A stretch of 64,000 nt of DNA from Beijerinckiaceae bacterium. GTDB taxonomy: Bacteria; Pseudomonadota; Alphaproteobacteria; Rhizobiales; Beijerinckiaceae. Positions 39,964-59,675 of this stretch are shown here, in pieces. Position numbers and translations under genes: made by a program. The notes below the pieces were generated by a model. It was not told the DNA's origin, did not search any database, and was given only the letters and a program-made list of their open reading frames with translations. The stretch's first letter is position 1. Each line of letters opens with the position of its first letter. The stretch lies in contig CANGFE010000001.1 in NCBI GenBank assembly GCA_947453155.1, positions 1 to 64,000 on the forward strand, written 5' to 3'.

Positions 39964-40347
39964 ATGCCAATAGCCAATCGAACCACAGACGAGAGTGAGT
40001 ATGAAAACGTCTTTAGACAATATCTGAATGTCTGCAATCAGGCGATCGCGGCCAACAAAGACAAATTTCCCTACACCGAAATTTGGAACGCGCGCCTCAA
40101 AGGGACCGACCAATTAGCGCGCATTCACGCTGTTGTCTTCGATGACCGACCGAAAATTGCATATTTGCTTCATCTCACACCGGAGATGAAGATCGAAATA
40201 TCTGAAAAAAAGGCATTACAAACCGATGAGCCCTGGCCGTTCCCTTATCAATATATGAAACGTGTCATCACCCATCCGGATAAATATATCGCCAATCCCG
40301 CACGGTTGCAGTGGGGATGGCTGCAGCATCTTCTTGACCCACAATAG
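39964..40347 (+). CDS. Hypothetical protein
   Basis: ATG preceded by gtggaggaacgg RBS-like sequence; 127 aa, no recognised family. Confidence 0.6.
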   Translation: MPIANRTTDESEYENVFRQYLNVCNQAIAANKDKFPYTEIWNARLKGTDQLARIHAVVFDDRPKIAYLLHLTPEMKIEISEKKALQTDEPWPFPYQYMKRVITHPDKYIANPARLQWGWLQHLLDPQ

Positions 40348-40373
40348 GCAGCAACCTGTACTCCTATCCCAAT

Positions 40374-41129
40374 TCAATTTTTAGGTTTTTTAACATGGTG
40401 TGACAGATAGCACCCATCGACAAATTGTAGCAGTTTTTTAATGGACGCGATTGTGACATGCGTGCCCTCGATGCGGGTTCCCGTTGCATCGCGCAGGATA
40501 TTGAGGGCTCTTGAAAATGTCGGGCCCTTCATTCCGAGCAAGTTGGCGATGAGCCGCTTGTCATAGGGTAATTCCAGTTCGAGTCCGTCCCGTTGATTTT
40601 GAACAAGACACAGATCCAGAATAAAACATCCAACGCGCTGAGGCGCGCTATAAAGCAGAAATTGCTCAACCTGCATTTCGTGACGTCGCTGATATTGAAT
40701 CATTGACGTCATCATATTCATCGATAGTTGCGGATTTTCGATCATTTGAGATTTGAGCAATGGAATTGGCATGCTCAGGATTAAAGCATCCTCAACAATC
40801 TGGGCCGTTGCCGCGTGATTTCCGTTTTCAAAAAGAGAAGCCTCTCCCGTCACCGCTTGTTTGGTAATCATGGCGAGTATTACCTCGTCACCGGATTCCG
40901 TTACATGGATCAGTTTAACCCAGCCCGCGATGATGACATAAAAACACTGCGCCACTTCACCTTCTAGAAAGAGATACTGCCCCTTTGTAAAGGCGCGCGA
41001 ATGCGACGCGGCCGCAAATACTTCTATTTCTTTGGAAGCCAATCCCGAAAACAAAGGCAACACACCCAAAAGATCGATTGCGGTGTGTCGCGATGTAATA
41101 TGTGAGATCTTGTCGATCACAGGTTTCAT
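40374..41129 (-). CDS. Crp/Fnr-family transcriptional regulator (no FNR-type Cys cluster)
   Basis: cNMP-binding domain (LPLFSGLASKEIEVFAAASHSRAFTKGQYLFLEGE) and Crp HTH (LPYDKRLIANLLGMKGPTFSRALNIL). Confidence 0.9.
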   Translation of the reverse strand: MKPVIDKISHITSRHTAIDLLGVLPLFSGLASKEIEVFAAASHSRAFTKGQYLFLEGEVAQCFYVIIAGWVKLIHVTESGDEVILAMITKQAVTGEASLFENGNHAATAQIVEDALILSMPIPLLKSQMIENPQLSMNMMTSMIQYQRRHEMQVEQFLLYSAPQRVGCFILDLCLVQNQRDGLELELPYDKRLIANLLGMKGPTFSRALNILRDATGTRIEGTHVTIASIKKLLQFVDGCYLSHHVKKPKN

Positions 41130-41334
41130 TGATTTGATGTTCCAAAATACTTTGAAAAAAGATATTTGAAGCGAACAATGCAATTGAGAAAATAGAGCGG
41201 CTGTTTTGAGCAGCAACACTCAGAATAAAAATAGAGTAGCACGTTTGTGCTATCATTTCATGAAAATAACATCATCAAACCCGTGTGCTCGTTAGGAATT
41301 GATTGGCGCCTTATCCTCTTCAAGGATTCCCACA

Positions 41335-41353
41335 TCGTTTCCTTATTTGAGAA
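41335..41353. promoter_or_regulatory. Shared 19-nt upstream motif, copy 1
   Basis: atcgtttccttatttgaga; 17/19 identical to 41752-41770. Confidence 0.4.
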
Positions 41354-41407
41354 CGCCTATATCGGCTTAGGCTGCAATTGGCAGTGCATACCGGATGGAG
41401 TTTTCCA

Positions 41408-41632
41408 ATGAATACGGAACAGATTCACGGCAAGGCGGAGCAGATTGCCGGCAAGCTCAAAGAGAAATGGGGCAAGCTCACAGGCGATGATATCGCGCTT
41501 TTTAATGGCAAGCGTGAGATATTCCTCGGCAAGCTCAAGGAACATTACGGGCTTTCCAAGGAAGATGCTGACAAGCAAATCAAGGCCATAGAAGAAGCTG
41601 CAAGTGGTAGCTTCACCAAGACGGCTTCCTGA
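41408..41632 (+). CDS. CsbD-family stress protein
   Basis: MNTEQIHGKAEQIAGKLKEKWGKLTGDDIALFNGKREIFLGKLKEHYGLSKEDADKQI. Confidence 0.93.
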   Translation: MNTEQIHGKAEQIAGKLKEKWGKLTGDDIALFNGKREIFLGKLKEHYGLSKEDADKQIKAIEEAASGSFTKTAS

Positions 41633-41751
41633 TTTTCTAGCCAAGAAAGTCGCCCCACAATTCATGTGTGCGGGCGATTTTTAATCCTGTCCCCTCCTCC
41701 GGCTCATGCGCCCGGGTTGGTTTCCAATTCGACAGATCCGGTGAATTTCAT

Positions 41752-41770
41752 ATCGCTTCCTTATTTGTGA
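41752..41770. promoter_or_regulatory. Shared 19-nt upstream motif, copy 2
   Basis: atcgcttccttatttgtga, ~40 bp upstream of the DUF3309 gene. Confidence 0.4.
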
Positions 41771-41808
41771 GGCGACAGGATGCTGATGGCTCTGGTGATG
41801 AGGATCAC

Positions 41809-41967
41809 ATGTCAGTTTCAACACTGCTTCTTATATTTCTCTTCCTTGTTTTGATCGGCGTCTTGCCGACATGGCCCCATAGTCGGGCTTGGGGGTATTA
41901 CCCCAGCGGCGGAACAGGAATTCTTTTGATTGTCATCATTTTGCTGATTTTGAACGGACGCATTTAA
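41809..41967 (+). CDS. DUF3309-family small membrane protein
   Basis: MSVSTLLLIFLFLVLIGVLPTWPHSRAWGYYPSGGTGILLIVIILLILNGRI. Confidence 0.88.
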   Translation: MSVSTLLLIFLFLVLIGVLPTWPHSRAWGYYPSGGTGILLIVIILLILNGRI

Positions 41968-41987
41968 CGTCGAGAAAGGAATTTCCC

Positions 41988-42299
41988 ATGAACCGATTTC
42001 CTCACCTGCAAATTTCACGACCCCTTTGGATCGCAACAATTGTTGCGACAACAGGCCTGACACTCGCGGGATGTGCGACAGGACATCGGTCGATGATCCG
42101 TGCGCCTGGCTCATATGAAAGTTCGGAATCCTACACAGATTCACAAGGCACAACGACGTCAAATAAAACGAATACAGACGTCAGCGTCGATAGCCGCGGT
42201 CGTCGCAAGCAAAGTGTCACCTCGGAAACGAGCCGTGATCCGCGTGGTCTCATGAACAAAACGACCACAAAGAAGAGCTCGACTTCGACTGAGAATTAA
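41988..42299 (+). CDS. Small Ser/Thr-rich lipoprotein
   Basis: Lipobox TGLTLAGCATG; low-complexity hydrophilic mature region. Confidence 0.7.
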   Translation: MNRFPHLQISRPLWIATIVATTGLTLAGCATGHRSMIRAPGSYESSESYTDSQGTTTSNKTNTDVSVDSRGRRKQSVTSETSRDPRGLMNKTTTKKSSTSTEN

Positions 42300-42653: not shown

Positions 42654-43700
42654 TCAGCGCTTCTTGCGGACGAAAATCTCATTGAAGAGCTTTTCCCACT
42701 TCTCGCCATTGTCCATCTGATCCGCCGCATTGACATAGATGATCTTCATTTCCGGCGGCGTCGTCGAGAAGCGCTTGTTGGTAGAGAAGAATTCATGGTT
42801 CGAGAGGATCTCCTGACCATCGGTCAGCAGCCAATCCATGAAAAGAACTGTCGCATTGGGATGGGGGGCATTGGCAGCCAGGCCCATGCCATTCACGCGC
42901 GCGACGGCAGGTTCGAGGTAGAGCGGCGCAATGGGTGCGCCTGATTTGTTTAGCTGGCGAACGCGGAACATATAGGTCGTGACAGCGAAGGGCACTTCGC
43001 CAGCCGCAATCAGATTGGCGAGCAGCGTATGGCCTTTGCGAATCTGGAAGCCGTTCTTATCAGCAATCTCGCGGAAAAGTTTCAGACCCTTTTCCTCGCC
43101 CATGGCTTCAACCGTGGTTGCAAACCAATCCGCATCCCCCGCCTCAACAGCGATCTTACCCTTCCATTTCGGATCGAGCAGATCTTCATACCGCTTGGGA
43201 TATTCACCTTCTGGGAAGGCCTTGGTGTTGATCGCGGCAGTAATGATCTGCAGGCGCGTGCCGAGCCATTCCTTGGGTGCTGCGGCTTGCGGAACGAGTT
43301 CAGCAATCACGGGTGAGTCCACCGCCTGCAATAGCTTTTCACGATGCAAAGCTTCAAGGCCCGATTGATCGGTCTCAAAAGCGTCCACCTCAAAGCGCTT
43401 GGCGCCATATTCGGTGACTGCGCGATGAACAATGTCTTCAGAGCTCGAGCGCCAAATGTTAATCTTCACGCCCGGATATTTGCCTTCGAAAGCATTTTTC
43501 AGCAGCGTCATGTCCTGCACCGTCTGCGACGTATACAGGTTGATCACGCCCTCTTTCTTGGCATTTTCGTAGAGTTTAGCCGTCCGGTCGGCGCCTTTCA
43601 GATTTGCGGCCTCGAGCACTTTGGCATTCTGGGCGAGCGCGGGTGAGGCCAGCAAAAGAGCGGCAAGCGACAGACCAGCAAGGCGCGGCAGGACGGACAT
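42654..43700 (-). CDS. Extracellular solute-binding protein (Fe3+-type ABC SBP family)
   Basis: Signal peptide, LYENAKKEGVINLYTSQTVQDMTLLKNAFEGKYPGVKINIWRSSSEDIVHRAVTEY. Confidence 0.85.
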   Translation of the reverse strand: MSVLPRLAGLSLAALLLASPALAQNAKVLEAANLKGADRTAKLYENAKKEGVINLYTSQTVQDMTLLKNAFEGKYPGVKINIWRSSSEDIVHRAVTEYGAKRFEVDAFETDQSGLEALHREKLLQAVDSPVIAELVPQAAAPKEWLGTRLQIITAAINTKAFPEGEYPKRYEDLLDPKWKGKIAVEAGDADWFATTVEAMGEEKGLKLFREIADKNGFQIRKGHTLLANLIAAGEVPFAVTTYMFRVRQLNKSGAPIAPLYLEPAVARVNGMGLAANAPHPNATVLFMDWLLTDGQEILSNHEFFSTNKRFSTTPPEMKIIYVNAADQMDNGEKWEKLFNEIFVRKKR

Positions 43701-43852: not shown

Positions 43853-44956
43853 ATGGCCGCAAGAGCCCCACTGCCCGACGCCTATCTTGATTGGGTGCAC
43901 AAACAAGGTGTGCCGGTCATTGAAGATTTCGGCATCGACATTCGCAAAGTGCCCGTCGCCCCATGGGCTCGCTATGGCATGAATGGCGCCTTCTGCCATC
44001 TCAAAGGCCGTGATGATTATATTTCGATCTTTGCCTTTGAGCTGCCACCCGGTTCCAAATCCGCGCCGCTGAAACATATTTGCGAAGAAGTCATCTATGT
44101 CATCTCAGGTCATGGATCGACATCGGTGACACTCGAAGACGGTCGCAAACATTTCTTCGAATGGGGCCCAAAAAGCCTGTTCTCGATTCCGCTGAACGCG
44201 ACGCATCAGCATTTCAACAGTTCCGGTCGTGAACCTGCGCGCTTTGCGTCCGTGAACAACATGGTTTTCACCATGAACTGTTTCCGGGATGAGGATTTTA
44301 TCTTCAATTGCCCGGTGCCCTTTACCGAACGCGCGGGAAAGCCGGACTATTTTGTCGGTGACGGTGAATTCATTTCCATTTCACCCGGCCGCCATCAATG
44401 GGAAACGAACTTTGTTCCCGATCTCTCGGCCTTCGAATTGAAGCAATGGTCGCAACGTGGTGCCGGCGGCTCCAATCTGCGTTTCATGCTGACAGAAAAC
44501 ACGATTGGCGCACATTCGTCAGAAATGCCCGTCGGGACTTACAAGAAGGGCCATCGTCACTTTGATGGCGTTTGCGTTTTCGCGGTCACGGGTCAGGGCT
44601 ATTCGCTACTCTGGCATGAAGATGACCAAGAATTCACCCGGGTCGATTGGGAGCATGGCTGCGTCTATTGCCCGCCCGATTCCATGTTCCACCAGCATTT
44701 CAACATTTCAAACCACCCTTCCCGCTATCTGGCACTCCAAATCGGCACTGTGCGTTATCCTCTTCTGCAGATGAAGCGCGATATCTGGACGGTTGGCGTC
44801 GACAAAGACGTGAAAGAAGGCGGCGCTCAGGTGGAATATCAGGATCAAGATCCACGCGTGCATGGCATTTGGCTTGATGAAATCGCGAAGCATGGCGTTG
44901 AATCGCGCATGGGGCCTTTTATCGATGAGACCCAATTTCCGGGGGCAAAGAAATGA
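43853..44956 (+). CDS. Cupin-domain protein (bicupin, dioxygenase-like), paralog 1
   Basis: Two cupin segments: KHICEEVIYVISGHGSTSVTLEDG and KGHRHFDGVCVFAVTGQGYSLLW. Confidence 0.82.
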   Translation: MAARAPLPDAYLDWVHKQGVPVIEDFGIDIRKVPVAPWARYGMNGAFCHLKGRDDYISIFAFELPPGSKSAPLKHICEEVIYVISGHGSTSVTLEDGRKHFFEWGPKSLFSIPLNATHQHFNSSGREPARFASVNNMVFTMNCFRDEDFIFNCPVPFTERAGKPDYFVGDGEFISISPGRHQWETNFVPDLSAFELKQWSQRGAGGSNLRFMLTENTIGAHSSEMPVGTYKKGHRHFDGVCVFAVTGQGYSLLWHEDDQEFTRVDWEHGCVYCPPDSMFHQHFNISNHPSRYLALQIGTVRYPLLQMKRDIWTVGVDKDVKEGGAQVEYQDQDPRVHGIWLDEIAKHGVESRMGPFIDETQFPGAKK

Positions 44957-45912
44957 GCGAGACCATGCACCCCGACCTCGACACGAAATTTATGGTCGAT
45001 CCCTATTTGAATTGGGTGAAGGCCGAAGGCGCACCCATCTATGAAGGTGCCGCACTCGATCTCATGGCACTCGATGTGAAGCCCTGGGCGCGCTTTGGTA
45101 TGAAAGGCGCCGTCTGCCATATTGATGGACGCTGCGATTACCTCACGGCCTTTCTCTTCGGGCTGGAGGCTGGACAGGCGTCAGCGGCGATCCGTCACAC
45201 TTATGAAGATGTCTTCTATGTGCTCTCCGGCAACGGCGAAACACAGATCACCCTCTCAGACGGACATGAGATCACGATCGAATGGAGCGAGAAGAAACTA
45301 TTTGCTGTGCCGATCAATGCGACTGCCCGCCATAAAGCCGGATCATCAGGTGCGCGCTTCGTGGCACTCAGCGACTTCCGCTATTTGATGGGCCTGTATC
45401 GCAACGAGGCCTTTCTATTTGGCAATACATCACCGCTTCATGGACGCCAGAAACGTGCGATTGATGCCGGCCTTGTTGTCAATCCCATGACGGCACCTGT
45501 TTCAGCTGATGAGCTAGCGCCGTTGGCTCTGGCTGATCTATCTGTTGGTGTTGATCTCACGACAATTGGGGCGAAATCATCGACGCTCGCGCGGCGTCAG
45601 ATGCAGGGGCGTCATCTTCTGGGCGTTGATGGACAAGGCTTCAGCCTCTCCTTCTCCAACCAAACAAGTGACATCCGCCGCATGGATTGGCGCCACGGCA
45701 TGCTGTTCGGTCTCAAGGGCATGCATTTCCACCAGCATTTTAATGCTGGCGGCGCCCCTGCCCGTTTTGTTGCCGTCGAACTGGGATCACCCTCCTCGCC
45801 CATGTTCCGCAGCCGCCGCTCGACCTATGGCGATGCGTCGGTCTACGCCTCGGGGGCTGCAATCATCCCCCGTGACCAAGAGCGACCCGAGGTCCGCGCG
45901 GCCTTGGGCTGA
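44953..45912 (+). CDS. Cupin-domain protein, paralog 2
   Basis: Same architecture as the preceding CDS (DPYLNWVKAEGAPIYEG...KPWARFGMKGAVCHIDGRCDYLTAFLFGL); ATGA overlap. Confidence 0.8.
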   Translation: MSETMHPDLDTKFMVDPYLNWVKAEGAPIYEGAALDLMALDVKPWARFGMKGAVCHIDGRCDYLTAFLFGLEAGQASAAIRHTYEDVFYVLSGNGETQITLSDGHEITIEWSEKKLFAVPINATARHKAGSSGARFVALSDFRYLMGLYRNEAFLFGNTSPLHGRQKRAIDAGLVVNPMTAPVSADELAPLALADLSVGVDLTTIGAKSSTLARRQMQGRHLLGVDGQGFSLSFSNQTSDIRRMDWRHGMLFGLKGMHFHQHFNAGGAPARFVAVELGSPSSPMFRSRRSTYGDASVYASGAAIIPRDQERPEVRAALG

Positions 45913-45928
45913 AATCCCTCCCCCTATC

Positions 45929-45964
45929 AAAAGGCCCGGCAACCTCGGTTTTCGGGCCTTTTTT
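45929..45964 (+). terminator. Rho-independent terminator after the cupin pair
   Basis: aaaggcccg...cgggccttttttg. Confidence 0.8.
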
Positions 45965-46059
45965 GTGCGCGTTCCGAACGGCTTGACTATTTTTGTGCTT
46001 TGCTGCGCTGCACCTTGATCCAGCGCAAGGCACGCATCCTCCAGCCCGCTAATTTCTCT

Positions 46060-46082
46060 TATGCGGAACATCTTTCCGCATA
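46060..46082. promoter_or_regulatory. Perfect palindrome upstream of the Rieske oxygenase gene
   Basis: tatgcggaa-catct-ttccgcata, 9-bp perfect arms, 45 bp before the ATG. Confidence 0.6.
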
Positions 46083-46127
46083 GAGGAACAATCGGGTCGC
46101 AACGTCGACCCTTTTTGAGGGGCAGCC

Positions 46128-47414
46128 ATGCTGAACAAAGACCAAAATGATCTCGTCACCCAAACCGGTCCCGGCACGATGATGGGTGATTTGTTCCGCT
46201 GCTATTGGCTGCCCGTTTTGCTCTCCGATGAGCTGCCGGAGAATGATTGCCCGCCGGTCCGTGTGAAGATTCTCTCTGAGCGGTTGATCGCGTTTCGCGA
46301 TTCAGAGGGCAAACTCGGCTTGATCGACGAATTCTGCCCGCATCGCGGCGCATCGCTTTGGTTCGGCCGCAATGAAGAATGCGGTTTGCGTTGCCCGTAT
46401 CACGGCTGGAAATTCGATGTGAACGGCCAATGCATCGACGTGCCTTCAGAGCCTGCGGAATCGGGCTACGCGAAAAAGATCAAGCTCACATCTTACCCCG
46501 TGATCGAAAAAGGCGGCGTGATCTGGACCTATATGGGCAAGGCCGAAAACATGCCCCCCGAACCCTCATATGAATTCTGCTCGGTCCCACGCAAACAGAG
46601 CTTTACCTCTAAGCGTTTGCAGGAATGCAATTGGTTGCAGGCGCTCGAAGGCGGCATCGATTCAAGTCACGTCTCTTGGCTGCATCGTGGCGACGTGAAG
46701 GCCGATCCCTTGTTCAAAGATGCGGGTGGCAACAAATATAATCTGAATGATCTGGCGCCTGTGTTCGAAGTCATCGACAGCGAAGGCGGCCTCTATATCG
46801 GCGCGCGCCGCATGGCCGAGGATAACCAATATTACTGGCGCATCACGCCTTGGCTAATGCCTTGCTTCACGGCAGTTCCCCCGCGCGGCGATTATCCGAT
46901 GCATGGCCACTTCTGGGTGCCGATTGATGATGAAAATTGCTGGGCCTGGAGCTTCGACTATCACCCCGTCCGCGCACTGACGCCGGAAGAAGTTGGACAT
47001 ATGAAGTCCGGCAAAGGGGTGCATTGCAAATATGTGCCGGGCACCTATCGGCCGCTCGCCAATAAGGACAATGATTATCTCATGAGCCGTGATGCCCAGA
47101 GGGCGGGCACCACCTATAGCGGCGTGGAAGGCATCGCCATCCAAGATTCCTCTTTGCAAGAATCCATGGGCCCGATTGTTGACCGCACGAAGGAAAACCT
47201 CGTCGGTTGTGACAACGGCATCATTATGGCGCGCCACAAGATCATGCGCGCTGCGAAAGCTCTCCGGGAGAAAGGCACTCTTCCCCCCGCTCGATCCCCG
47301 GAACAGCAGAGCGTCCGTGCGACTGCCTTGCTTCTCAAACGCGACGTCCACTTCAAGGATGGCGCCAAGGAAGCATTGCAGGCTCGGCCGGGAGTTCCGC
47401 AAACGTCGGTCTGA
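46128..47414 (+). CDS. Rieske [2Fe-2S] aromatic-ring oxygenase, phthalate dioxygenase-like oxygenase subunit
   Basis: CPHRGASLWFGRNEECGLRCPYHGWKFDVNG Rieske motif; NWLQALEGGIDSSHVSWLH catalytic-domain segment. Confidence 0.92.
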   Translation: MLNKDQNDLVTQTGPGTMMGDLFRCYWLPVLLSDELPENDCPPVRVKILSERLIAFRDSEGKLGLIDEFCPHRGASLWFGRNEECGLRCPYHGWKFDVNGQCIDVPSEPAESGYAKKIKLTSYPVIEKGGVIWTYMGKAENMPPEPSYEFCSVPRKQSFTSKRLQECNWLQALEGGIDSSHVSWLHRGDVKADPLFKDAGGNKYNLNDLAPVFEVIDSEGGLYIGARRMAEDNQYYWRITPWLMPCFTAVPPRGDYPMHGHFWVPIDDENCWAWSFDYHPVRALTPEEVGHMKSGKGVHCKYVPGTYRPLANKDNDYLMSRDAQRAGTTYSGVEGIAIQDSSLQESMGPIVDRTKENLVGCDNGIIMARHKIMRAAKALREKGTLPPARSPEQQSVRATALLLKRDVHFKDGAKEALQARPGVPQTSV

Positions 47415-47446
47415 CCTCCCGTAGGCCGTACGTTTTTTGACTTGAA

Positions 47447-47474
47447 GCCGCCGCAGTAATGCGGCGGCCTTTTT
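47447..47474 (+). terminator. Rho-independent terminator after the Rieske gene
   Basis: gccgccgcagtaatgcggcggcctttttat. Confidence 0.8.
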
Positions 47475-47564
47475 ATGGGTGTGCGAATCGCTTGCGGCAA
47501 AGCCGCAGGTGACTAGAATAGAGCCCAAAGGCGGCCCGCTTCACGAGGCGCCATGGGAGGAGAA

Positions 47565-48707
47565 ATGACGGGAGCGCTGGACGGAATTCGCGTGGTCGAA
47601 TTCGCCAATTACGTTTCTGGCCCCTATGCCGGCATGCTGCTGGGCGATATGGGCGCGGATATCATTAAAGTTGAAGAACCCACAAAGGGCGATCCTTTCC
47701 GCGGCTGGGGCCGCGTCGAATATTCGCCGACGTTCGGTTCGGTCAATCGCAACAAGAAGAGCGTCACGCTGGATTTGAAGAGCGAGCAAGGCAAGGCGGA
47801 TGCGCGCGCGCTTATCCTCTCGGCTGATGTCGTGATTGAAAATTTCCGTGTTGGCACGATGGATCGCCTGGGCCTTGGCTATGATCTGTTCACCGAAAAA
47901 AATCCGGGCCTCATCTGGTGCTCGATCACCGGCTTTGGATCGGATGGACCCTATGCCATGCGACCGGGCTACGACACAGTCGGACAAGCCTCGAGCGGAT
48001 TGCTGAGCCTCCTGACGGATGTGGCTAATCCCAAGCCAATGGGAATTTCCTTGTCTGACCATTTGGGCGGGATGAATGCGGCCAATGGTATTTTAGCTGC
48101 CATCATTGCTCGCGGCCGCACCGGTCGTGGTCAGCGCGTCGAAACCTCTCTGCTGGAATCAACGCTGTCTTTCTGCGGCGAAAATGCAGCTCGCTTTTTC
48201 GAAAATGGCAAAGTGCCAGGTCGTGCGACCCGGACGCACCAAGCCCAAGTCTATGCTTTCACCGCGAGCGACGGAAAAGCTTTCATTGTCCATCTCTCAT
48301 CGCCATCGAAATTCTGGATCGGATTGACTGAAGTCGCTGGCCATCCCGAATGGGCCGACGACCCGCGTTTCAAGACGAAAGAGACGCGTGCGAAAAATTA
48401 TGATGCGTTGAACGAGCTCTTGGCCAATGTCTTCAAGGGCAATACGCGGGCCTTCTGGTTGCAAAAGCTTCTCGACCGCGACGTGCCATCAGCGCCTCTC
48501 AATACGCTGGATGATGTGTTTGCCGATCCGCAAGTGCAGCATCTGAAAATGCGTGTCGACGTACCCCACCCCAAACTCGGTCAGGTCGGTTATGTGCGCA
48601 ATGGCGTTCGGCTGTCGGATACGCCGACCTCGGTGCGCACCTGTTCGCCGGAGTTGGGCGAACATAATGACGAAATCCTCATACCTCTGCGTGCGAAAGG
48701 GGCCTGA
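47565..48707 (+). CDS. CaiB/BaiF CoA-transferase family III
   Basis: LDGIRVVEFANYVSGPYAGMLLGDMGADIIKVEEPTKGDPFRGWG; NRNKKSVTLDLKSEQGKADARALILSADVVIENFR. Confidence 0.93.
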   Translation: MTGALDGIRVVEFANYVSGPYAGMLLGDMGADIIKVEEPTKGDPFRGWGRVEYSPTFGSVNRNKKSVTLDLKSEQGKADARALILSADVVIENFRVGTMDRLGLGYDLFTEKNPGLIWCSITGFGSDGPYAMRPGYDTVGQASSGLLSLLTDVANPKPMGISLSDHLGGMNAANGILAAIIARGRTGRGQRVETSLLESTLSFCGENAARFFENGKVPGRATRTHQAQVYAFTASDGKAFIVHLSSPSKFWIGLTEVAGHPEWADDPRFKTKETRAKNYDALNELLANVFKGNTRAFWLQKLLDRDVPSAPLNTLDDVFADPQVQHLKMRVDVPHPKLGQVGYVRNGVRLSDTPTSVRTCSPELGEHNDEILIPLRAKGA

Positions 48708-48708
48708 C

Positions 48709-49731
48709 ATGATGAAAAGAGCAGGTCTCGCAATTCTCTCTTTGTGCCTCTCCCTCGCGCAGGCACAAGCTCAGTCCGCTGCTGACTTTTTCAGAGCCCG
48801 CAAAATGACTTTGATCACCTCGGCTTCGGTCGGTGGTGGTTATGATCAATATGCGCGTCTCTTGTCACGCCACATGCCAAAATATCTACCGGGTGGGCCG
48901 AGCATGATCGTGCAAAACATGCCAGGCGCCGAAGGAATTAAGGCGGCCAATTATCTCTATTCAGTCGCACCACGCGACGGCTCTGTCGTGGGTGGCTTGC
49001 AGCGCAATACGGGTCTGGCCAAATTCTATCACCCCGATAGTTCGAATGCGCAATTTGATGCGCGGAAATTCATCTGGCTGGGCTCGACGCAGCAGGAGAT
49101 TGGCTTCTTCCTGATGCGGACAGCGACAGGCGCGCTCGATCTCAATGGTCTGAAACAGCGCGAGACCACGGTCTCTTCGACGTCGCGCAATTCGCCCAGC
49201 TCCATCTATCCGCGTCTGTTGAACGCGCTCTATGGAACGAAAATCCGCGTGATCGAAGGCTATGACGGGTCGCAGACATCGCTCATGGCCATTGAGCGGG
49301 CCGAAGTGGACGGGCACGTATCCGGTGGCACCTCAGCCAATTTCCGTGCGCGTTATCGTCCTTGGGAAAAATCTGGTCAGGTCGCCATGATCATGCAGCT
49401 CGGCATGGAGCGGGATAAAGAATATCCCAACGTGCCCACAGCTCTTGAGCTTGCGCCCGATGAAACCACTCGCGCAATTTTTGAAATCGCATTCGTCGAA
49501 CAGGTGATGGGCCGCCCATTTGTCCTGCCGCCGGACGTCCCCAAAGATCGCGTAGAAGTTTTGCGTGCTGCTTTCGACAAAACCATGGTCGATAAAGAAT
49601 TCATTGAAGAAGCCGCCAAACAGGGTGCAGAGATTGATCCTGTAACAGGTGCGCGCATCAATGAATTGCTCGACAAAGTTTATACCGCTCCGCCGGCACT
49701 TGCCCAGCGCGTCCGCGATCTCGTGCAATAA
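48709..49731 (+). CDS. Tripartite tricarboxylate transporter/Bug-family periplasmic substrate-binding protein
   Basis: SADFFRARKMTLITSASVGGGYDQYARLLSRHMPKYLPGGPSMIVQNMPGAEGIKAANYLYSVAPRDG. Confidence 0.88.
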   Translation: MMKRAGLAILSLCLSLAQAQAQSAADFFRARKMTLITSASVGGGYDQYARLLSRHMPKYLPGGPSMIVQNMPGAEGIKAANYLYSVAPRDGSVVGGLQRNTGLAKFYHPDSSNAQFDARKFIWLGSTQQEIGFFLMRTATGALDLNGLKQRETTVSSTSRNSPSSIYPRLLNALYGTKIRVIEGYDGSQTSLMAIERAEVDGHVSGGTSANFRARYRPWEKSGQVAMIMQLGMERDKEYPNVPTALELAPDETTRAIFEIAFVEQVMGRPFVLPPDVPKDRVEVLRAAFDKTMVDKEFIEEAAKQGAEIDPVTGARINELLDKVYTAPPALAQRVRDLVQ

Positions 49732-49739
49732 GGTTTTTT

Positions 49740-50930
49740 ATGATCAATGCCATCACACCCTCACGTGAATTGCGTGACACATGCGCCATTGTCGGCACTG
49801 CGACGAGTAAACTCGGCAAAGTTCCGGGCGTCTCCAGCCTCGATCTTCTGATGGATGCCATCCGTAACGCACTCGATGATGCCGGCTTAAAAGCCAGTGA
49901 CATCGACGGTGTCTTGTGTCGCGGACCGGATGAATCCTATTCGCACCATCAATTGCTGGCCGAGCGCCTCGGCATCAATGCACGCTTCTCCACCACGCTC
50001 ACCAATGGTGGCGCCAGCCAGATTATGTCTGTTGCGCTTGCCGTTATGGCGATCCGGTTTGGCTTGGCCAATACGATTGTCTGTGGCTTTGGCCGCGATA
50101 CTTGGTCGCGTACGCATGCGAGCGAAGAAGCGCGTGTGCGCAATGAGACGCGTCCCGAATCCATGCTCGCACGCGAGTTTGGTCCTGAATATGGCTATTT
50201 TGGTGCCACTGCTGCCCATGCCTTTGGCGCCACGCGCCACATGCATCTTTACGGCACGACACGTGATGACTTCGGTGAAATCGCTGTCGCCTTCCGCGAA
50301 CATGCGTTGCGCAATCCCGATGCTTCAATGAAGAAGCCACTAAGCATTGAAGATTATCATGCCGGCCGGCTGATCGTGGCGCCTTTCGGCATTTACGATT
50401 GCAGCTTGCGCTCAGATGCGGCGGGCGCTGTGATTGTGACCAGTGCCGCACGCGCCAAAGATTTGAAAAAGCCGCCCGTCATGATCAAGGGCTTTGGCTT
50501 CCAAAATAATACGCGCGGTTGGTTTGCCGATGACAATATGGTTGTCACAGCCGCCAAGCAGGCGGGTGAAGCCGCTTATGCCATGGCGGGCCTTGGCCCC
50601 AAAGATGTCGACACAGCGCAGATCTACGATTGCTTCACTTATATGGTGCTCACACAATTGGAAGATTACGGCTTCTGCAAAAAGGGCGAAGGCGGGGCTT
50701 TCGTTTCGTCAGGCGCCTTGCGCTTGGGTGGTGCTCTGCCGTGCAACACGTCCGGCGGTCAGCTGTCTGAAGCTCATTGCGAAGGCATGTTGCAGATCGT
50801 TGAGGGTGTGCGCCAATTGCGTCACCTCTATCCTGAAAATCGGCAGGTCAAAGATGCCGATATTGCACTGATTTCCGGTCACGGCGGCAATCAGGTCTGT
50901 CATTCCACTCTCATTCTGGGGCGCGCATGA
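49740..50930 (+). CDS. Thiolase-superfamily (SCP2/lipid-transfer-like) protein lacking the nucleophilic Cys
   Basis: Thiolase-like fold signatures (LPCNTSGGQLSEAHCEGMLQIVEGVRQLR; GHGGNQVCHSTLILGR); canonical CxSG replaced by GASQ. Confidence 0.85.
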   Translation: MINAITPSRELRDTCAIVGTATSKLGKVPGVSSLDLLMDAIRNALDDAGLKASDIDGVLCRGPDESYSHHQLLAERLGINARFSTTLTNGGASQIMSVALAVMAIRFGLANTIVCGFGRDTWSRTHASEEARVRNETRPESMLAREFGPEYGYFGATAAHAFGATRHMHLYGTTRDDFGEIAVAFREHALRNPDASMKKPLSIEDYHAGRLIVAPFGIYDCSLRSDAAGAVIVTSAARAKDLKKPPVMIKGFGFQNNTRGWFADDNMVVTAAKQAGEAAYAMAGLGPKDVDTAQIYDCFTYMVLTQLEDYGFCKKGEGGAFVSSGALRLGGALPCNTSGGQLSEAHCEGMLQIVEGVRQLRHLYPENRQVKDADIALISGHGGNQVCHSTLILGRA

Positions 50931-51340
50931 TGAGCGATCTTGTTCCAAAACCAAAGCCCCGCCCTGCTCCGGAATCCTTGCCTTATTGGCAAGCGGCGCG
51001 CGAACATCGTTTGGCTTTGCCCAAATGCGAGGATTGCCAGAAATTCTGGTTTCCGCCGTCGCGCACCTGTCCGCATTGTTTGTCGACGAAATTTTCGTTC
51101 GAGAATGTCTCAGGCAAAGGAAAGATCTTTTCCTTCGTCACATTCCACCGTGTCTATCGCCCGGCCTTCGCCAATGATGTGCCCTATGTCGTTGCGCTGA
51201 TCGAGCTCGATGAAGGTCCACGCCTGTTGAGCAATATTATGGGTGTTACTCATGATCAGGTGAAATGCGAGATGCGTGTCGAAGTTGTCTTTGATGATTA
51301 TGACGAAGATATTTCGATCCCGAAATTCAAACTCGTCTAA
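50927..51340 (+). CDS. DUF35/OB-fold protein with zinc ribbon (thiolase partner)
   Basis: CEDCQKFWFPPSRTCPHC followed by an OB-fold-like GKGKIFSFVTFHRVYRPAF; ATGA overlap with the thiolase-like gene. Confidence 0.9.
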   Translation: MMSDLVPKPKPRPAPESLPYWQAAREHRLALPKCEDCQKFWFPPSRTCPHCLSTKFSFENVSGKGKIFSFVTFHRVYRPAFANDVPYVVALIELDEGPRLLSNIMGVTHDQVKCEMRVEVVFDDYDEDISIPKFKLV

Positions 51341-53759: not shown

Positions 53760-55127
53760 TTATCTGGTAGAAAACGCTGGCCGATCAGACCCCAATGGGC
53801 CCGCCAAACGCGAGAATTCAAAGGCAAGATCGCCAACCCTGAGCGGCGGTTTCAAACGCCGGGCTGGCCCCCAATGTGTGTGTTCAACCACCTCCTGCAA
53901 ATCGGCGGTGCTTTCGGCCGCAAGCGGCCCCTGCGCTTGGCTAGAAAGGCTAGCTACTTCAGCCGCCGTCCGCGCCAGTGAGAAGCGAATGGTCGAACCC
54001 GTCCCATTCTGGGCTTCGCATAAAGCGCGCAGCACAGCAGCGGCCATCATGTGGCCTGTGCCGTAATCCAAAGCTTGAACTGGCAATTGTTGAGGTGAAC
54101 TCGCCTTTGCGTAACGCATCTCTTCCTTAGCAAGGCCGGTGCTCATTTGCACGACCGTGTCAAAGCCACGACGTTTGGCCCATGGACCTGTCCATCCGTA
54201 GGCATTCAATGCGACGTCGATGAGATTAGAATTGATTTTTAGGCGAGCGCTTTCTCCAAAACCAAGCTTCTCTAGAGCATCGCCACGATAGCCGTGCACG
54301 ATGACGTCCGCTTCAGCGATAAGCTGCGTGAATATGCGACGATCTTCTGTATTGGTGAGATCAAGCCGCGCTCGGCTTTTGCCGGGTGTTACTTCCGGCA
54401 ACACAGCCGGCTCATCCCAATCAGGTGGATCGATGCGCAAGACATCTGCGCCATAGGCTGCCAAGAAACGTGTCGCAATCGGTCCAGCCAGAATGCGCGT
54501 CAGGTCTAATACGCGCAACCCTTCTAGCGGCCGATCTGGACGACCAAAGCTGCGCAAGCGACGGGCAGACGTTGTTTCCCAATGGATGAAAGGCTCACGC
54601 CCAACAGCTTGGCCCTGCGGTTGCGTGGACCATTCATCCGCGCTCAGCATTTTCGCGGCAACGCCCCCCTCTGCGACAATTGCTTCTTGCAATGTCTCCG
54701 CATCCCACGAGCGGACAGCGTTAGCGACAGAATGAGAATTTTCATGACAGGCTAGAACACGCAGACAAGCCGCGCGATGATGCGCGGCATTGGTATGGAG
54801 GCGAATAAAGCCATCTTTGGTTTGGTAGTTTCCCGCAATCGGGTCCCATTGTGGGGGCAGTGACCAGCCGGTGGGTCTGATCGATTTGGCAAACCAAAAC
54901 GACGACAAGCGACGATCAACGATCACGCCAGCTTTAGCCCCGCCGCGCCGCTCAACAAATTCGGCTAGTGCGATCCCGGCGGATGCGATAGAGGCCGCAG
55001 CAAAATCCGTCACCGCAAAAACAGATGGAATCGCTCCCTGCCCCGTTTCTTGAACCTGGCCTAAAAGCTCGTCTGACCCGCGCAGAGCAGACCAGATTTT
55101 TCCAAGAATGGTGTGTGTCTGCGACAA
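53760..55127 (-). CDS. CoA-transferase family III protein with apparently permuted domain order
   Basis: The canonical N-terminal CaiB motif (LEGLRVLDLTRILAGPIATRFLAAYGADVLRIDPP) begins near residue 200 and follows a segment resembling the CaiB small domain (GNYQTKDGFIRLHTNAAHHRA). Confidence 0.8.
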   Translation of the reverse strand: MSQTHTILGKIWSALRGSDELLGQVQETGQGAIPSVFAVTDFAAASIASAGIALAEFVERRGGAKAGVIVDRRLSSFWFAKSIRPTGWSLPPQWDPIAGNYQTKDGFIRLHTNAAHHRAACLRVLACHENSHSVANAVRSWDAETLQEAIVAEGGVAAKMLSADEWSTQPQGQAVGREPFIHWETTSARRLRSFGRPDRPLEGLRVLDLTRILAGPIATRFLAAYGADVLRIDPPDWDEPAVLPEVTPGKSRARLDLTNTEDRRIFTQLIAEADVIVHGYRGDALEKLGFGESARLKINSNLIDVALNAYGWTGPWAKRRGFDTVVQMSTGLAKEEMRYAKASSPQQLPVQALDYGTGHMMAAAVLRALCEAQNGTGSTIRFSLARTAAEVASLSSQAQGPLAAESTADLQEVVEHTHWGPARRLKPPLRVGDLAFEFSRLAGPLGSDRPAFSTR

Positions 55128-55130
55128 GCG

Positions 55131-56642
55131 TCAGCCCGTATAAAGATTCGCATATTGATCGCGCAGAACATTTTTTTGGACTTTGCCCATCGTATTGCGC
55201 GGCAGATCATCCAAGAAAATGATTTTCTTGGGCTGTTTAAATTTGGCCAAACGATCTTGCAGCGCATTGATGATCGCTTTTTCATCGATCTGGTCGGGCT
55301 TGGTACGCACAACAACAGCGGTCACGCCTTCGCCAAAGTCGGGATGAGGGACACCAATGACAGCGCTTTCAAAGACGCCCGGCATGGCATCGATCTCGGA
55401 CTCGATTTCCTTCGGATAGACATTAAAGCCACCCGTAATGATCAAATCTTTGCCGCGTCCGACAATATGCACATACCCACGCGCATCAATTTTTCCCAGA
55501 TCCCCGGTGATAAAAAACCCATCCGGCTTGAATTCGGCCTCGGTCTTTTCGGGCATGCGCCAATAGCCCTTAAAGACATTTGGCCCCTTCACTTCGATCA
55601 TGCCGATTTCATCGGCCGCCAAAAGCTTGCCGCTCTCGGGATCAGCGATCCGCACTGACACACCCGGCAAAGGGTACCCGACCGCACCCGGCACCCGATC
55701 CCCATCATAAGGATTTGACGTATTCATATTGGTTTCCGTCATGCCATAGCGTTCAAGAATCGCATGCCCCGTCTTGGCGCTCCATTCGCGATGCGTATCG
55801 GCCAACAGCGGTGCTGAGCCAGACACGAAAAGACGCATGTTCTTGACGTTCTCTTTGTTCAGTTTGGGATGCTGCAACAGACGGACATAGAATGTTGGCA
55901 CGCCCATCAAACAAGTCGCGCGTACCATAAGCTCCATGATTTTTTCCGGATCGAACTTCGGTAAAAAGATCATCGATGCGCCGGAGAAAAACGTCACATT
56001 CGAGGCAACGAAAAGACCATGCGTGTGATAGATCGGCAAAGCATGGATCAACACATCTTTCGAGCTGAAGCGCCAATATTCAACTAGCGTTGTGGCATTG
56101 GAATGAAGATTGTCATGGGTGAGCATCGCGCCCTTGGAACGACCCGTCGTCCCTGATGTGTAAAGAATGGCCGCGAGATCATCGCCTTGACGCGCAACTG
56201 TGTTGAACTCAGGCGATTGCTCAGCTGCGGCGGAGACAAGACTTCCTTTGCCGACCGGATCAATTGTGAGGACCTTTGCGCCCACTTTGGCGGCAAGTTG
56301 CTGAATGCCCGGTTCCGACGCTGGGTCGCAGACAATCAGGCTTGGTTCGGAGTCACTTATGAAATAATCGAGCTCAGCCAACGTATAGGCTGTATTGAGC
56401 GGCAAATAGACAGCCCCGGCGCGGACAGTTGCCAAATAGAGGACAAGAGCCGGAACGGATTTTTCGACCTGCGCTGCGACGCGATCACCAGACTTCACAC
56501 CTTGCGCTACAAGCACATGCGCAATCTGCGCCGAAAGCGCGAAAAGATCGCCGTAGGAATAAATCGTTCCGTCGATATTTTCGATGGCCCGAGCGGCCAA
56601 GTTCGGCGTGTTACGGGACAGGCGGTCGAACAGGTTGCTCAT
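55131..56642 (-). CDS. matB: Malonyl-CoA synthetase-like acyl-CoA synthetase (MatB family)
   Basis: ILYTSGTTGRSKGAMLTH, ERYGMTETNMNTSNPYDGDRVPGAVGYPLPGVSVRI, GGFNVYPKEIE. Confidence 0.88.
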   Translation of the reverse strand: MSNLFDRLSRNTPNLAARAIENIDGTIYSYGDLFALSAQIAHVLVAQGVKSGDRVAAQVEKSVPALVLYLATVRAGAVYLPLNTAYTLAELDYFISDSEPSLIVCDPASEPGIQQLAAKVGAKVLTIDPVGKGSLVSAAAEQSPEFNTVARQGDDLAAILYTSGTTGRSKGAMLTHDNLHSNATTLVEYWRFSSKDVLIHALPIYHTHGLFVASNVTFFSGASMIFLPKFDPEKIMELMVRATCLMGVPTFYVRLLQHPKLNKENVKNMRLFVSGSAPLLADTHREWSAKTGHAILERYGMTETNMNTSNPYDGDRVPGAVGYPLPGVSVRIADPESGKLLAADEIGMIEVKGPNVFKGYWRMPEKTEAEFKPDGFFITGDLGKIDARGYVHIVGRGKDLIITGGFNVYPKEIESEIDAMPGVFESAVIGVPHPDFGEGVTAVVVRTKPDQIDEKAIINALQDRLAKFKQPKKIIFLDDLPRNTMGKVQKNVLRDQYANLYTG

Positions 56643-56653
56643 CAGAAAAGCCT

Positions 56654-58012
56654 TCAGCGGCTGGTGGCCGGCCCCATGACGAGATCCGGCAAAGAGGTCG
56701 AGATAGACGGAAAGAGACACAATACGATCACAGCGCCGATCATCAGGACGACAAAGGGCAATGTTCCGTAAATGACCTCCTTCAGAGGGATATCAGGCGC
56801 AATATTGCGAATGACGAAAATATTCAATCCCACAGGGGGGTGGATCAGCCCCAATTCCATGACAATCGTCATCACCACACCAAACCAGATCAGATCAAAT
56901 CCTGCCGCCTTGATGGGGGGCAGGATGATCGGCGCAGTCATCAGGATGATCGAGACCGGGGGCAGGAAGAAGCCGAGAACCACAACCAAGAGGAGAATGG
57001 TGGCCAGCAAGAACCACTTGTCCAAATTCAGCGCGACAATGGCCTGGGCTGCGCCTTGGGAGATATGCAGATAGCTCATGACGTAGGAATAAAGCAGCGA
57101 CATGCCGATGATCATCATCAGCATCGTGGATTCCCGCAAAGTCGACGACAAAATGGGTTCGAGGTCGGCTGGCCGCCACACGCTATAAATGATTGCGATC
57201 AGGGCGAGAGCCAACAGTCCGCCAAGTCCCGCAGTCTCGGATGGCGTGGCATAGCCGCCATAGAGCGCAAACATGACACCCGTCAGCAAAGCCACAAACG
57301 GAATGACGCGGGGCAAGGAGCTGATCTTCTCAGCCATCGTATATTGATGCTTCTCGAGAATATTATGGGCGGTGCCTGAGCGCTCATATTCGGCACGTGC
57401 GGCGCGATATTCCTGCTGGAAGCGAACAACCGCATAGGCCGCAAAAAGCAAAACCAAGAAGATCCCTGGACCAATCCCAGCCAGAAAGAGCCGCCCGAGG
57501 GATTGCTCGGCTGCCACGGCATAAAGGATCATGGTGATCGAGGGGGGCAGCAAAATGCCAAGCGTCCCACCAGCAGCAATGAGACCTGCTGCAAAGCCAC
57601 CTGAATAGCCGCGCTTGCGCATCTCCGGGATGCCAGCGGAACCAATCGCTGAACAAGTGGCCGGAGATGACCCCGCCATGGCCGCGAACAGAGCACAAGC
57701 AAAGACATTCGCAATGCCAAGTCCGCCCGGAACGCGATGCATCCAGGCGTGAAGCGCGGAATAAAGGTCTTGCCCTGCCCGCGATTTGCCAATCGCCGCG
57801 CCTTTCAAAATGAAAAGCGGGATCGACAGCAGGGTGATGGAGGCCATTTCCTCAAACACATTCTGCGTCACCGTATCAAGCGAGGCGGCCGGCATAAAAA
57901 AATACATAGAAACGATAGCGACAGCACCAAGCGCAAAAGCGATGGGCATTCCGGCGAACATGGCAAAGAGTGTCGCGCCACCATAAAGGAGGCCAACTGT
58001 CAAAGTCGTCAC
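56654..58012 (-). CDS. dctM: TRAP transporter large permease DctM
   Basis: Multi-TM protein with FAAMAGSSPATCSAIGSAGIPEM and LLPPSITMILYA. Confidence 0.93.
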   Translation of the reverse strand: MTTLTVGLLYGGATLFAMFAGMPIAFALGAVAIVSMYFFMPAASLDTVTQNVFEEMASITLLSIPLFILKGAAIGKSRAGQDLYSALHAWMHRVPGGLGIANVFACALFAAMAGSSPATCSAIGSAGIPEMRKRGYSGGFAAGLIAAGGTLGILLPPSITMILYAVAAEQSLGRLFLAGIGPGIFLVLLFAAYAVVRFQQEYRAARAEYERSGTAHNILEKHQYTMAEKISSLPRVIPFVALLTGVMFALYGGYATPSETAGLGGLLALALIAIIYSVWRPADLEPILSSTLRESTMLMMIIGMSLLYSYVMSYLHISQGAAQAIVALNLDKWFLLATILLLVVVLGFFLPPVSIILMTAPIILPPIKAAGFDLIWFGVVMTIVMELGLIHPPVGLNIFVIRNIAPDIPLKEVIYGTLPFVVLMIGAVIVLCLFPSISTSLPDLVMGPATSR

Positions 58013-58563
58013 GAGCGCTGCCCTTTATGTAGCCCGACTGCAATCTGAAGTGCGATTTGAATGCAGAGAAGTGTCATGCCAGCGGCCATGACCGAATAGG
58101 GAATCCAAAGCGGTGGCGCCCAGGTTGAGGATGTCACCTGCCCGTCTTCCCAAGCCTCATGAAACAAGGTCCATGATTTCCAAGAGAAGAATGCGCAAAA
58201 GGCAAGGCTTGCGACGTCGACAAGCAACACACGCACCCGATTAGCTGCGGGCGAGAGAAACCCTACAAGCGCATCAATGCCAACATGCCCACGTTTAGAT
58301 TGCACATGGGCAGCGGTCAAAAAGGTCGCGCCCACCAGCAGAAAAACCGAAGCCTCATCCTGCCAATAGGTCGGCGCTTTGAAATAATATCGCACGACAA
58401 CGCTATAGCTGAGGATCAAGCTGGCCGCGATCAAAGCTACTGAAGCGAGGACCATGATGATTTTGTTCACGACGCCCAACGCACTTTCGGCGGCCCCAAC
58501 AGGACCGCCGATCTTGCCCGCTTGTGGAGCAGCGCCCGGTAATTCAAAACCATGCGCGCTCAT
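58009..58563 (-). CDS. dctQ: TRAP transporter small permease DctQ
   Basis: Four TM helices, VVVRYYFKAPTYWQDEASVFLLVGATFLTAAHVQSKRGHVGID. Confidence 0.9.
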   Translation of the reverse strand: MSAHGFELPGAAPQAGKIGGPVGAAESALGVVNKIIMVLASVALIAASLILSYSVVVRYYFKAPTYWQDEASVFLLVGATFLTAAHVQSKRGHVGIDALVGFLSPAANRVRVLLVDVASLAFCAFFSWKSWTLFHEAWEDGQVTSSTWAPPLWIPYSVMAAGMTLLCIQIALQIAVGLHKGQRS

Positions 58564-59579
58564 GCAGGGACAGCCTCTGCAAGCTGAAGCAATTTAGCAC
58601 TCCCGGAATTCTTCCCGGCATAGTCATTCCAGGCCGTCTCGCGGGCAATCTTGCGCCATTTCTCGACAATTGTTTCATCAAGATCGTGAATTTTCGCGCC
58701 AGCTTTTTCGTAAATTTTAGCGACCGCCTCGTCATCAGCCATAGCCGCATCGCGACCATAGGCTTCAAGCCCCTCGCCCACTTCCATAATCAAGTCTTGC
58801 TGCTTTTTCGGCAAAGCATCAAAAACCGATTTCGAAATGATCAGTGGCTCAAGCATATACCAATAAGATTTCCCGCGCCCTGTCGTGAGGTGTTTGGCAA
58901 TCTCTTCCAGCTTGAATGAAATCAGACTTGTTGAGGACGTCAGACCTGCATCACAGGCGCCCGTTTGCATGGCGGCATAAAGTTCATTGGAGGGCAATGA
59001 TAAAACAGCCGCCCCAGCCGCTTGCAGCATCAAATCCATTTCACGCGAGCCGCCACGGATTTTCATTCCCTTGGCGTCCTCTGGATTTACCAGTGGCGCG
59101 GAACGGCTCGCCACACCACCAGCCTGCCAAATCCATGTAACAATCATGATGCCCTTGTCATTTAAGAATTTTGAAAATTCTTTCCCGACGGCCGCTTGTT
59201 TCCACGCCAGACCCTGCTTGTAAGAACTCACAAGCGCGGGCATGAGCCCAATATTCACCTCGGGCATTTCACCGCCTGCATATGAGATTGGCACAAGCGA
59301 CATATCAAGCGCGCCCTTACGCAGCGAAGACACTTGCGAATTCACTTTCATGAGCGATGAGCCCGCGTAAACTTGCGCGGCCATTTCGCCCGAACTTTTC
59401 GCGGCCAGTTCTTGCGCAAAACGATGGCACAGAATATCGCGGAAATCTCCGTCCTTGCCATTTGATCCGGGAAATTGATGCGAGATTTTTAAAGTCGTCG
59501 CCGCTTGAGCGGAGGAAAATTTCAACAATGCGGGAGCAGCAATCGAACCCGCGAGCACATGGCGGCGCGTCAATGTCAT
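58560..59579 (-). CDS. dctP: TRAP transporter substrate-binding protein DctP
   Basis: Tat-like N-terminus MTLTRRHVLAGSIAAPALLKFSSAQA and KGMKIRGGSREMDLMLQAAGAAVLSLPSNELYAAMQTGACDAG. Confidence 0.92.
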   Translation of the reverse strand: MTLTRRHVLAGSIAAPALLKFSSAQAATTLKISHQFPGSNGKDGDFRDILCHRFAQELAAKSSGEMAAQVYAGSSLMKVNSQVSSLRKGALDMSLVPISYAGGEMPEVNIGLMPALVSSYKQGLAWKQAAVGKEFSKFLNDKGIMIVTWIWQAGGVASRSAPLVNPEDAKGMKIRGGSREMDLMLQAAGAAVLSLPSNELYAAMQTGACDAGLTSSTSLISFKLEEIAKHLTTGRGKSYWYMLEPLIISKSVFDALPKKQQDLIMEVGEGLEAYGRDAAMADDEAVAKIYEKAGAKIHDLDETIVEKWRKIARETAWNDYAGKNSGSAKLLQLAEAVPA

Positions 59580-59675
59580 AGGCTTTCCTCCGATTTTTCT
59601 CTCCGTCCAAACGGCCGACAAGAGCCGAGCTGAAACACCAGCATAACAGAGATTTTTGAGAAGTCGGAAACGACT

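Follow-up and report, generated by a model that had tools for sequence, protein, structure and literature searches.

A conserved block of bicupin, Rieske oxygenase, CoA transferase and predicted retro-aldolase genes in a lake Beijerinckiaceae bacterium: a probable mosaic of catabolic modules

Introduction

Do seven adjacent genes of a lake bacterium, all read from the same strand, encode one complete catabolic route? The genes lie at 43853-51340 of the window, by which we mean the whole stretch of 64,000 nucleotides analysed here (positions 1 to 64,000 of contig CANGFE010000001.1, Beijerinckiaceae bacterium). They code for two bicupins (CUP1 and CUP2), a Rieske oxygenase, a CaiB-type coenzyme A (CoA) transferase, a Bug-type solute-binding protein (SBP), a thiolase-like protein and a DUF35 protein. 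An earlier reading made from the letters alone (the sequence-only reading) had proposed that they form one undescribed route, from uptake through ring hydroxylation and CoA activation to C-C cleavage. All seven open reading frames (ORFs) were found on the (+) strand at the coordinates given there, and their Pfam and NCBIfam domain matches agree with the families as named. Our preferred answer, to which we give a probability of about 0.58, is that the block is a mosaic, specific to one lineage, in which three catabolic modules, each transcribed on its own, serve the use of carboxylated acids, probably aromatic di- or tricarboxylic ones. Literature searches found no paper describing this gene combination; the parts are of known kinds, and what is new is how they are combined.

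Results

All seven genes are maintained by purifying selection and are not chance ORFs, because in the comparison of the window with the related locus L033 the ratio of nonsynonymous to synonymous substitution rates (dN/dS) was 0.02-0.15 for six of them, and CUP1, for which synonymous sites were saturated, showed a proportion of nonsynonymous differences (pN) of only 0.05. Scanning of GTDB genomes with a bicupin alignment yielded 80 loci. Among these, the full block, including a divergent ATP-binding cassette (ABC)-type SBP gene (SBP_bac_6/SBP_bac_1; 42654-43700, (-) strand), was found besides the window only in L032, L033 and L034, where the divergent gene has the same position and strand. 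The three loci belong to metagenome-assembled genomes of Beijerinckiaceae and related Rhizobiales, with CUP1 identities of 97, 92 and 90%, respectively. In L035-L043 (CUP1 identity 76-86%) the CUP1-CUP2 pair alone was retained, often next to Bug SBPs. The exact cluster was thus recovered in three further loci, all of them close relatives, and elsewhere the modules are separate.

The spacing of the genes divides the block into three modules. CUP1 (43853-44956) and CUP2 (44953-45912) overlap (gap of -4 bp), and 215 bp then separate CUP2 from the Rieske gene (46128-47414). A further 138 bp lie between the Rieske gene and caiB (47553-48707), which is followed after 1 bp by the Bug gene (48709-49731) and, after another 8 bp, by the thiolase-like gene (49740-50930); the latter overlaps the DUF35 gene (50927-51340; gap of -4 bp). 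A strong terminator-like hairpin with a T-run, GCCGCCGCAGTAATGCGGCGGC followed by CTTTTT, occupies 47447-47468 ((+) strand) between the Rieske gene and caiB; it was kept in 4/4 genomes, and its arms differ yet stay complementary. A weaker hairpin with a T-run ahead of the Rieske gene (46094-46111, (+) strand) was seen in the window only and is not kept in the relatives. In L034, an antisense gene of the major facilitator superfamily (MFS) stands between CUP2 and the Rieske gene. The simplest reading is that the block probably comprises three transcription units, CUP1-CUP2, the Rieske gene, and CaiB-Bug-aldolase-DUF35. Hence the proposal of one complete seven-gene route stands in part: the genes do exist, and they are conserved and catabolic in type, but they probably form at least three transcription units, and the modules recur apart.

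Genome-level counts were made in a sample of 385 alphaproteobacterial genomes, 12 with a bicupin and 373 without. An orthologue of the thiolase-like protein, referred to below as the aldolase, was detected in five other genomes. The CaiB-aldolase-DUF35 triad was present in 5/5 of them (identities of 63-66%, 66-80% and 49-61%, respectively), always in this order and with no cupin or Rieske gene in the stretch. Rieske orthologues (at least 56% identity) occurred in 7 of the 12 bicupin genomes and aldolase orthologues in 6 of the 12, versus 0/373 of the others in both cases, counts in which the genomes are not phylogenetically independent. Rieske orthologues also lie near other bicupins, on contig C84 of the same genome and in G381, and they share plasmids with bicupins in Phyllobacterium and Sinorhizobium. 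The triads at L148, L149, L146 and L150 belong to a recurrent catabolic neighbourhood, in which proteins of the enolase superfamily and of the Amidohydro_2 family, ADP-forming acyl-CoA synthetases and Bug SBPs appear in varying combinations.

The sequence-only reading had assigned C-C cleavage to the thiolase-like/DUF35 pair. The 49740-50930 product does match Thiolase_C_1 in Pfam/NCBIfam, but it lacks the thiolase nucleophile: Gly91, invariant in 9/9 sequences, aligns with the nucleophilic Cys of acetoacetyl-CoA thiolase 6ESQ. Y296-D297-C298-F299 and His346 are likewise invariant in 9/9 orthologues. The partner, encoded by the overlapping gene in the window and by the next gene in the five other genomes, consists of a ChsH2-type zinc ribbon (zf-ChsH2, PF12172; a C4 finger, C34-x2-C37-x10-C48-x2-C51) and an OB fold (OB_ChsH2_C, PF01796). 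CtSal and TcLtp2 are steroid side-chain retro-aldolases that work with a DUF35 partner; CtSal, which we confirmed to be the protein of structure 9MYR, relies on Tyr302/Cys304 for catalysis and has Gly at the nucleophile position, and the TcLtp2 pattern is only partly alike (PMC12329534). Because Gly replaces the nucleophilic Cys and the YDCF motif is present, we predict, by analogy, that the thiolase-like protein and DUF35 form a CoA-dependent retro-aldolase of the Sal/Ltp2 type.

With Sal-Shy(DUF35) (9MYR) and Ltp2-ChsH2(DUF35) (6OK1) the window pair shares a thiolase fold with an adjacent DUF35 gene, Gly at the nucleophile position and a YD(C/H)(F/Y) motif, the Cys of which is Sal-like. It differs from them in several respects. 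As placed by eye from the alignments, His346 falls in the stretch that holds Tyr344 in Ltp2 and Gln352 in Sal, and may represent a third arrangement beside these two. The window set has no MaoC hydratase domain, the zinc finger of its DUF35 protein is C4 (as in Ltp2) and not C3H1, and the aldolase is partnered with CaiB; no steroid genes were seen in the locus. If correct, the prediction would extend Sal/Ltp2 chemistry beyond steroids, and it would correct a common annotation: in this clade, an 'acetyl-CoA acetyltransferase/thiolase family protein' beside an OB-fold protein and CaiB is a predicted retro-aldolase. CaiB itself, a family III CoA transferase whose gene also opens the triad in the five other genomes, matches CoA_transf_3 over its full length (residues 9-372 on positions 1-366 of PF02515, 4.7e-115) and scores below the specific NCBIfam equivalog cut-offs.

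The Rieske oxygenase (Rieske plus LigXa_C domains) is 49.5% identical over 412 residues to the isophthalate dioxygenase IPDO-KF1 (IphA) of Comamonas testosteroni KF1 (9INA/9IOY). The metal-site residues C70, H72, C89, H92 and the bridging D178 (IPDO D174) are invariant in our alignment (A6). Mutation of R234 or H257 of IPDO abolished activity on isophthalate (PMC12445078). Both carboxylate anchors are kept in the window enzyme, as R238 and H261, and V178 is also kept; the pocket differs from that of IPDO at Phe249 (Arg253), Phe333 (Ile336) and Thr175 (Ser179). Enzymes with Arg253 form a monophyletic clade (support 100/99) that includes the window clade, C84, G381, G104, G300, Phyllobacterium, Rhizobium and Caballeronia, apart from IPDO and from the Phe-keeping enzymes of Rhodococcus and Arthrobacter. 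This suggests that the substrate is a related polycarboxylate rather than isophthalate itself, and the clade points to IPDO-like oxygenases with an altered anion-binding pocket among rhizobial plasmids and aquatic bacteria. An SBP gene lies near both oxygenase genes, but the window enzyme belongs to a sister clade, its partners are cupins, CaiB and the aldolase, and the block has no cognate reductase or dihydrodiol dehydrogenase.

As the sequence-only reading had noted, no reductase or ferredoxin, canonical ring-cleavage enzyme or regulator lies inside the cluster; such genes are present elsewhere in the genome. Contig C84 (L135) encodes a Rieske paralogue 77% identical to that of the window, together with two bicupins. 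It also carries a likely reductase of the Fer2-FNR type, and its proteins resemble those of a plasmid island of Phyllobacterium zundukense (NZ_CP104971): ferredoxin 64%, IclR regulator 57%, Fer2-FNR reductase 55% and a 174-aa-type protein 38%. The ferredoxin and reductase of C84 may serve as electron donors of the window Rieske oxygenase. A search of the same genome with the PDR-type (phthalate dioxygenase reductase) protein from L099 as query gave no match at 1e-10. The Phyllobacterium island has a Rieske oxygenase 69% identical to that of the window and with Arg253, as well as bicupins and TctABC/Bug transport. Unlike the window block, it carries EutA, ferredoxin, IclR, FNR, a Zn-alcohol dehydrogenase and RraA, whereas the annotation of the 42 kb inspected lists neither a CaiB gene nor a thiolase-like or DUF35 gene. 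The C84 locus also encodes a Pht5/NMT1-like protein. Families of ring-cleavage enzymes are found on C30 (LigB-type) and on C10 and C43 (intradiol-type).

CUP1 matches Cupin_2 at 3.5e-9, and CUP2 falls slightly under the cut-off. An AlphaFold2 model of CUP1 (predicted local distance difference test score, pLDDT, of 92; 86 for CUP2) has the bicupin fold, with His75/Glu78 in the N-terminal domain and His234, His236 and His280, invariant in 40 members, in the C-terminal domain. In CUP2, a bicupin paralogue, the C-terminal metal site is degenerate, R-Q replacing HxH: the motif is absent from 12/12 CUP2 proteins, in which Q fills its second place and R or H is found at other positions of the motif. 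These residues point to an active CUP1 subunit paired with a partly degenerate CUP2 subunit. The top Foldseek matches of CUP1 are oxalate decarboxylase, MncA, seed globulins and gentisate dioxygenase, at a whole-chain template modelling (TM) score of about 0.46. With gentisate 1,2-dioxygenase (3BU7) and oxalate decarboxylase (1UW8) CUP1 shares two cupin domains and three His residues that form a putative metal site, and these matches are significant; however, identity is 14-16% at a TM score of 0.46, the N-domain of the window bicupin does not have the first His of HxH, and CUP2 does not have the C-domain HxH. Membership in a gentisate-type family is not indicated: AminoSalDhMabB scored 27-29 bits against a cut-off of 650, and gentisate_1_2 matched CUP2 only, at 17 against 442.

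The identification of the 48709-49731 product as a Bug-type SBP holds, by way of its relatives. As a single sequence it had no match in Pfam or the PDB; in an alignment of 14 members it is the one without such a match, and the other 13 (13/13) match PF03401 (TctC). The profile of the alignment matches the structures of a terephthalate-binding protein, Bug27 and BugD. In the window's own genome, a Bug gene lies within 2 kb of 8/12 bicupin places, versus 14% expected (p = 5e-5).

A further association concerns the bicupins at large and is a more surprising lead than the cluster itself. A EutA homologue (PF06277, 3e-115) stands beside the cupin gene in 33 of the 80 bicupin loci, within 193 bp in 32 of these 33. 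One of these loci is L044:11083-12651, and the pairing was also seen at C9:48725-52137 and C48:1545-2945 of the window's own genome and at 446521-449292 and 469795-472597 of NZ_CP104971. Of the 12 bicupin genomes, 11 carry full-length EutA, versus 0/373 others (Fisher p = 2e-20, a value that overstates the case since the genomes are not independent, in a pattern that covers several families). The twelfth has a EutA fragment at a contig edge, adjoining its bicupin. The adjacency extends to other proteobacterial classes and to actinobacteria and Chloroflexi. EutB and EutC, looked for among neighbours only, were outside the 25 commonest families among the 86 neighbours, and literature searches found no description of EutA with a cupin, or under 'ethanolamine ammonia lyase-activating protein'. 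In the sampled Alphaproteobacteria EutA tracks bicupins, so that ethanolamine use deduced from eutA alone would mislead. The window cluster has no EutA, and the genome has three elsewhere. At L139:3-1269 and L182:5933-7157, two adjacent ORFs of single-cupin size (a 'split' bicupin) lie beside EutA or near a EutA-bicupin pair.

Discussion

The module boundaries, the families with their diagnostic residues, and the separate recurrence and co-occurrence of the modules are properties of the sequences themselves. The substrate, the order of the steps and the unity of the route would, if the block is a mosaic of modules for carboxylated acids, be as follows. The Bug protein, as part of Bug/TTT (tripartite tricarboxylate transporter) uptake, would capture a carboxylated acid. 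The Rieske enzyme would then oxygenate an isophthalate-like substrate bearing an extra negative or polar group, facing Arg253, with electrons from the C84 ferredoxin and Fer2-FNR reductase. Ring cleavage could be carried out by the LigB-type enzyme of C30, by an intradiol-type enzyme of C10 or C43, or by a bicupin; CUP1 with CUP2 would catalyse a metal-dependent reaction, be it ring cleavage, hydration or decarboxylation. CaiB would form a hydroxy-acyl-CoA, the substrate ester of the aldolase, and the YDCF aldolase with DUF35 would release acetyl- or propionyl-CoA and an oxo-acid or aldehyde by retro-aldol cleavage. Pairs of CaiB and citramalyl-CoA lyase are a better-known precedent for CoA transfer followed by cleavage. 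That all seven genes act in one route is conceivable.

Several points weigh against this mosaic reading. CUP1 is one of a large family of uncharacterised bicupins and has no close solved relative, so that any reaction proposed for it is tentative; neither a cis-diol dehydrogenase nor a ring-cleavage enzyme is present inside the locus. The C84 and window Rieske enzymes may have different substrates. Finally, the three modules are found together in one lineage only, and their juxtaposition could be accidental.

This last point leads to an explanation that we consider unlikely, namely that catabolic modules which are unrelated and have no common substrate came to be neighbours in a genome where genes of these kinds abound. 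About 13 bicupins and a very large expansion of about 85 Bug/TctC SBPs (88 matches) in 2.8 Mb (G000) would make such neighbours common, and the terminators at the module borders fit this explanation as well. However, gene order was retained between the window and L033 across a dS well above 1, and Rieske-bicupin neighbourhoods occur independently on C84, in G381 and on the Phyllobacterium and Sinorhizobium plasmids.

We regard it as improbable that the seven genes constitute one operon for a complete new aromatic pathway. Strand and order are identical in the four genomes, the genes are closely packed in places, with two overlaps of 4 bp and gaps of 1 and 8 bp, and the Rieske and aldolase orthologues are confined to bicupin genomes in our sample, but the counts carry the non-independence noted above. 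The conserved hairpin after the Rieske gene, the antisense gene of L034, the separation of the modules in all other genomes and the absence of reductase, diol dehydrogenase and ring-cleavage genes from the locus all argue for separate units. True isophthalate degradation of the iph type (IphA oxygenase with an IphC-like SBP) is the least probable of these explanations: both carboxylate anchors, the near 50% identity to IPDO-KF1, the Bug-type SBP gene (compare iphC in Comamonas E6) and the IclR and FNR genes at the C84 paralogue speak for it, but the three pocket replacements, the separate, well-supported clade, the missing dihydrodiol dehydrogenase and reductase, and the caiB gene and terminator standing between the Rieske and SBP genes speak against it. 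A riboflavin (lum) pathway, which also combines a Rieske enzyme, a cupin and a retro-aldolase, was rejected, as the Rieske enzyme of that pathway is of the alpha/beta kind and no gene set of the lum type was seen in this case; it does provide a precedent for a cupin hydratase ahead of a retro-aldol step.

The mosaic reading can be joined to the EutA association in a broader and more tentative proposal, which we hold to be possible rather than probable. The bicupins of the window would be part of an uncharacterised enzyme system in which a bicupin acts together with a EutA-type ATPase unrelated to ethanolamine ammonia-lyase, a system coupled repeatedly to IPDO-like Rieske enzymes and to uptake by Bug/TTT. 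The CUP1-CUP2 pair would then be derived, with one active and one partly degenerate bicupin, and ring-cleavage products would leave through the linked CaiB-aldolase-DUF35 triad by a new CoA-dependent retro-aldol route.

Other features of the window

The G+C content dips to 0.46 at 40001-42000, just upstream of the block, in surroundings of about 0.55. Downstream, at 53760-59621 on the (-) strand, the window encodes a complete DctPQM tripartite ATP-independent periplasmic (TRAP) transporter, a malonyl-CoA synthase that scores 873 bits against a cut-off of 558, and a 455-aa CaiB-like protein that matches PF02515 only as far as position 210; this region looks like a unit for the uptake and activation of malonate.

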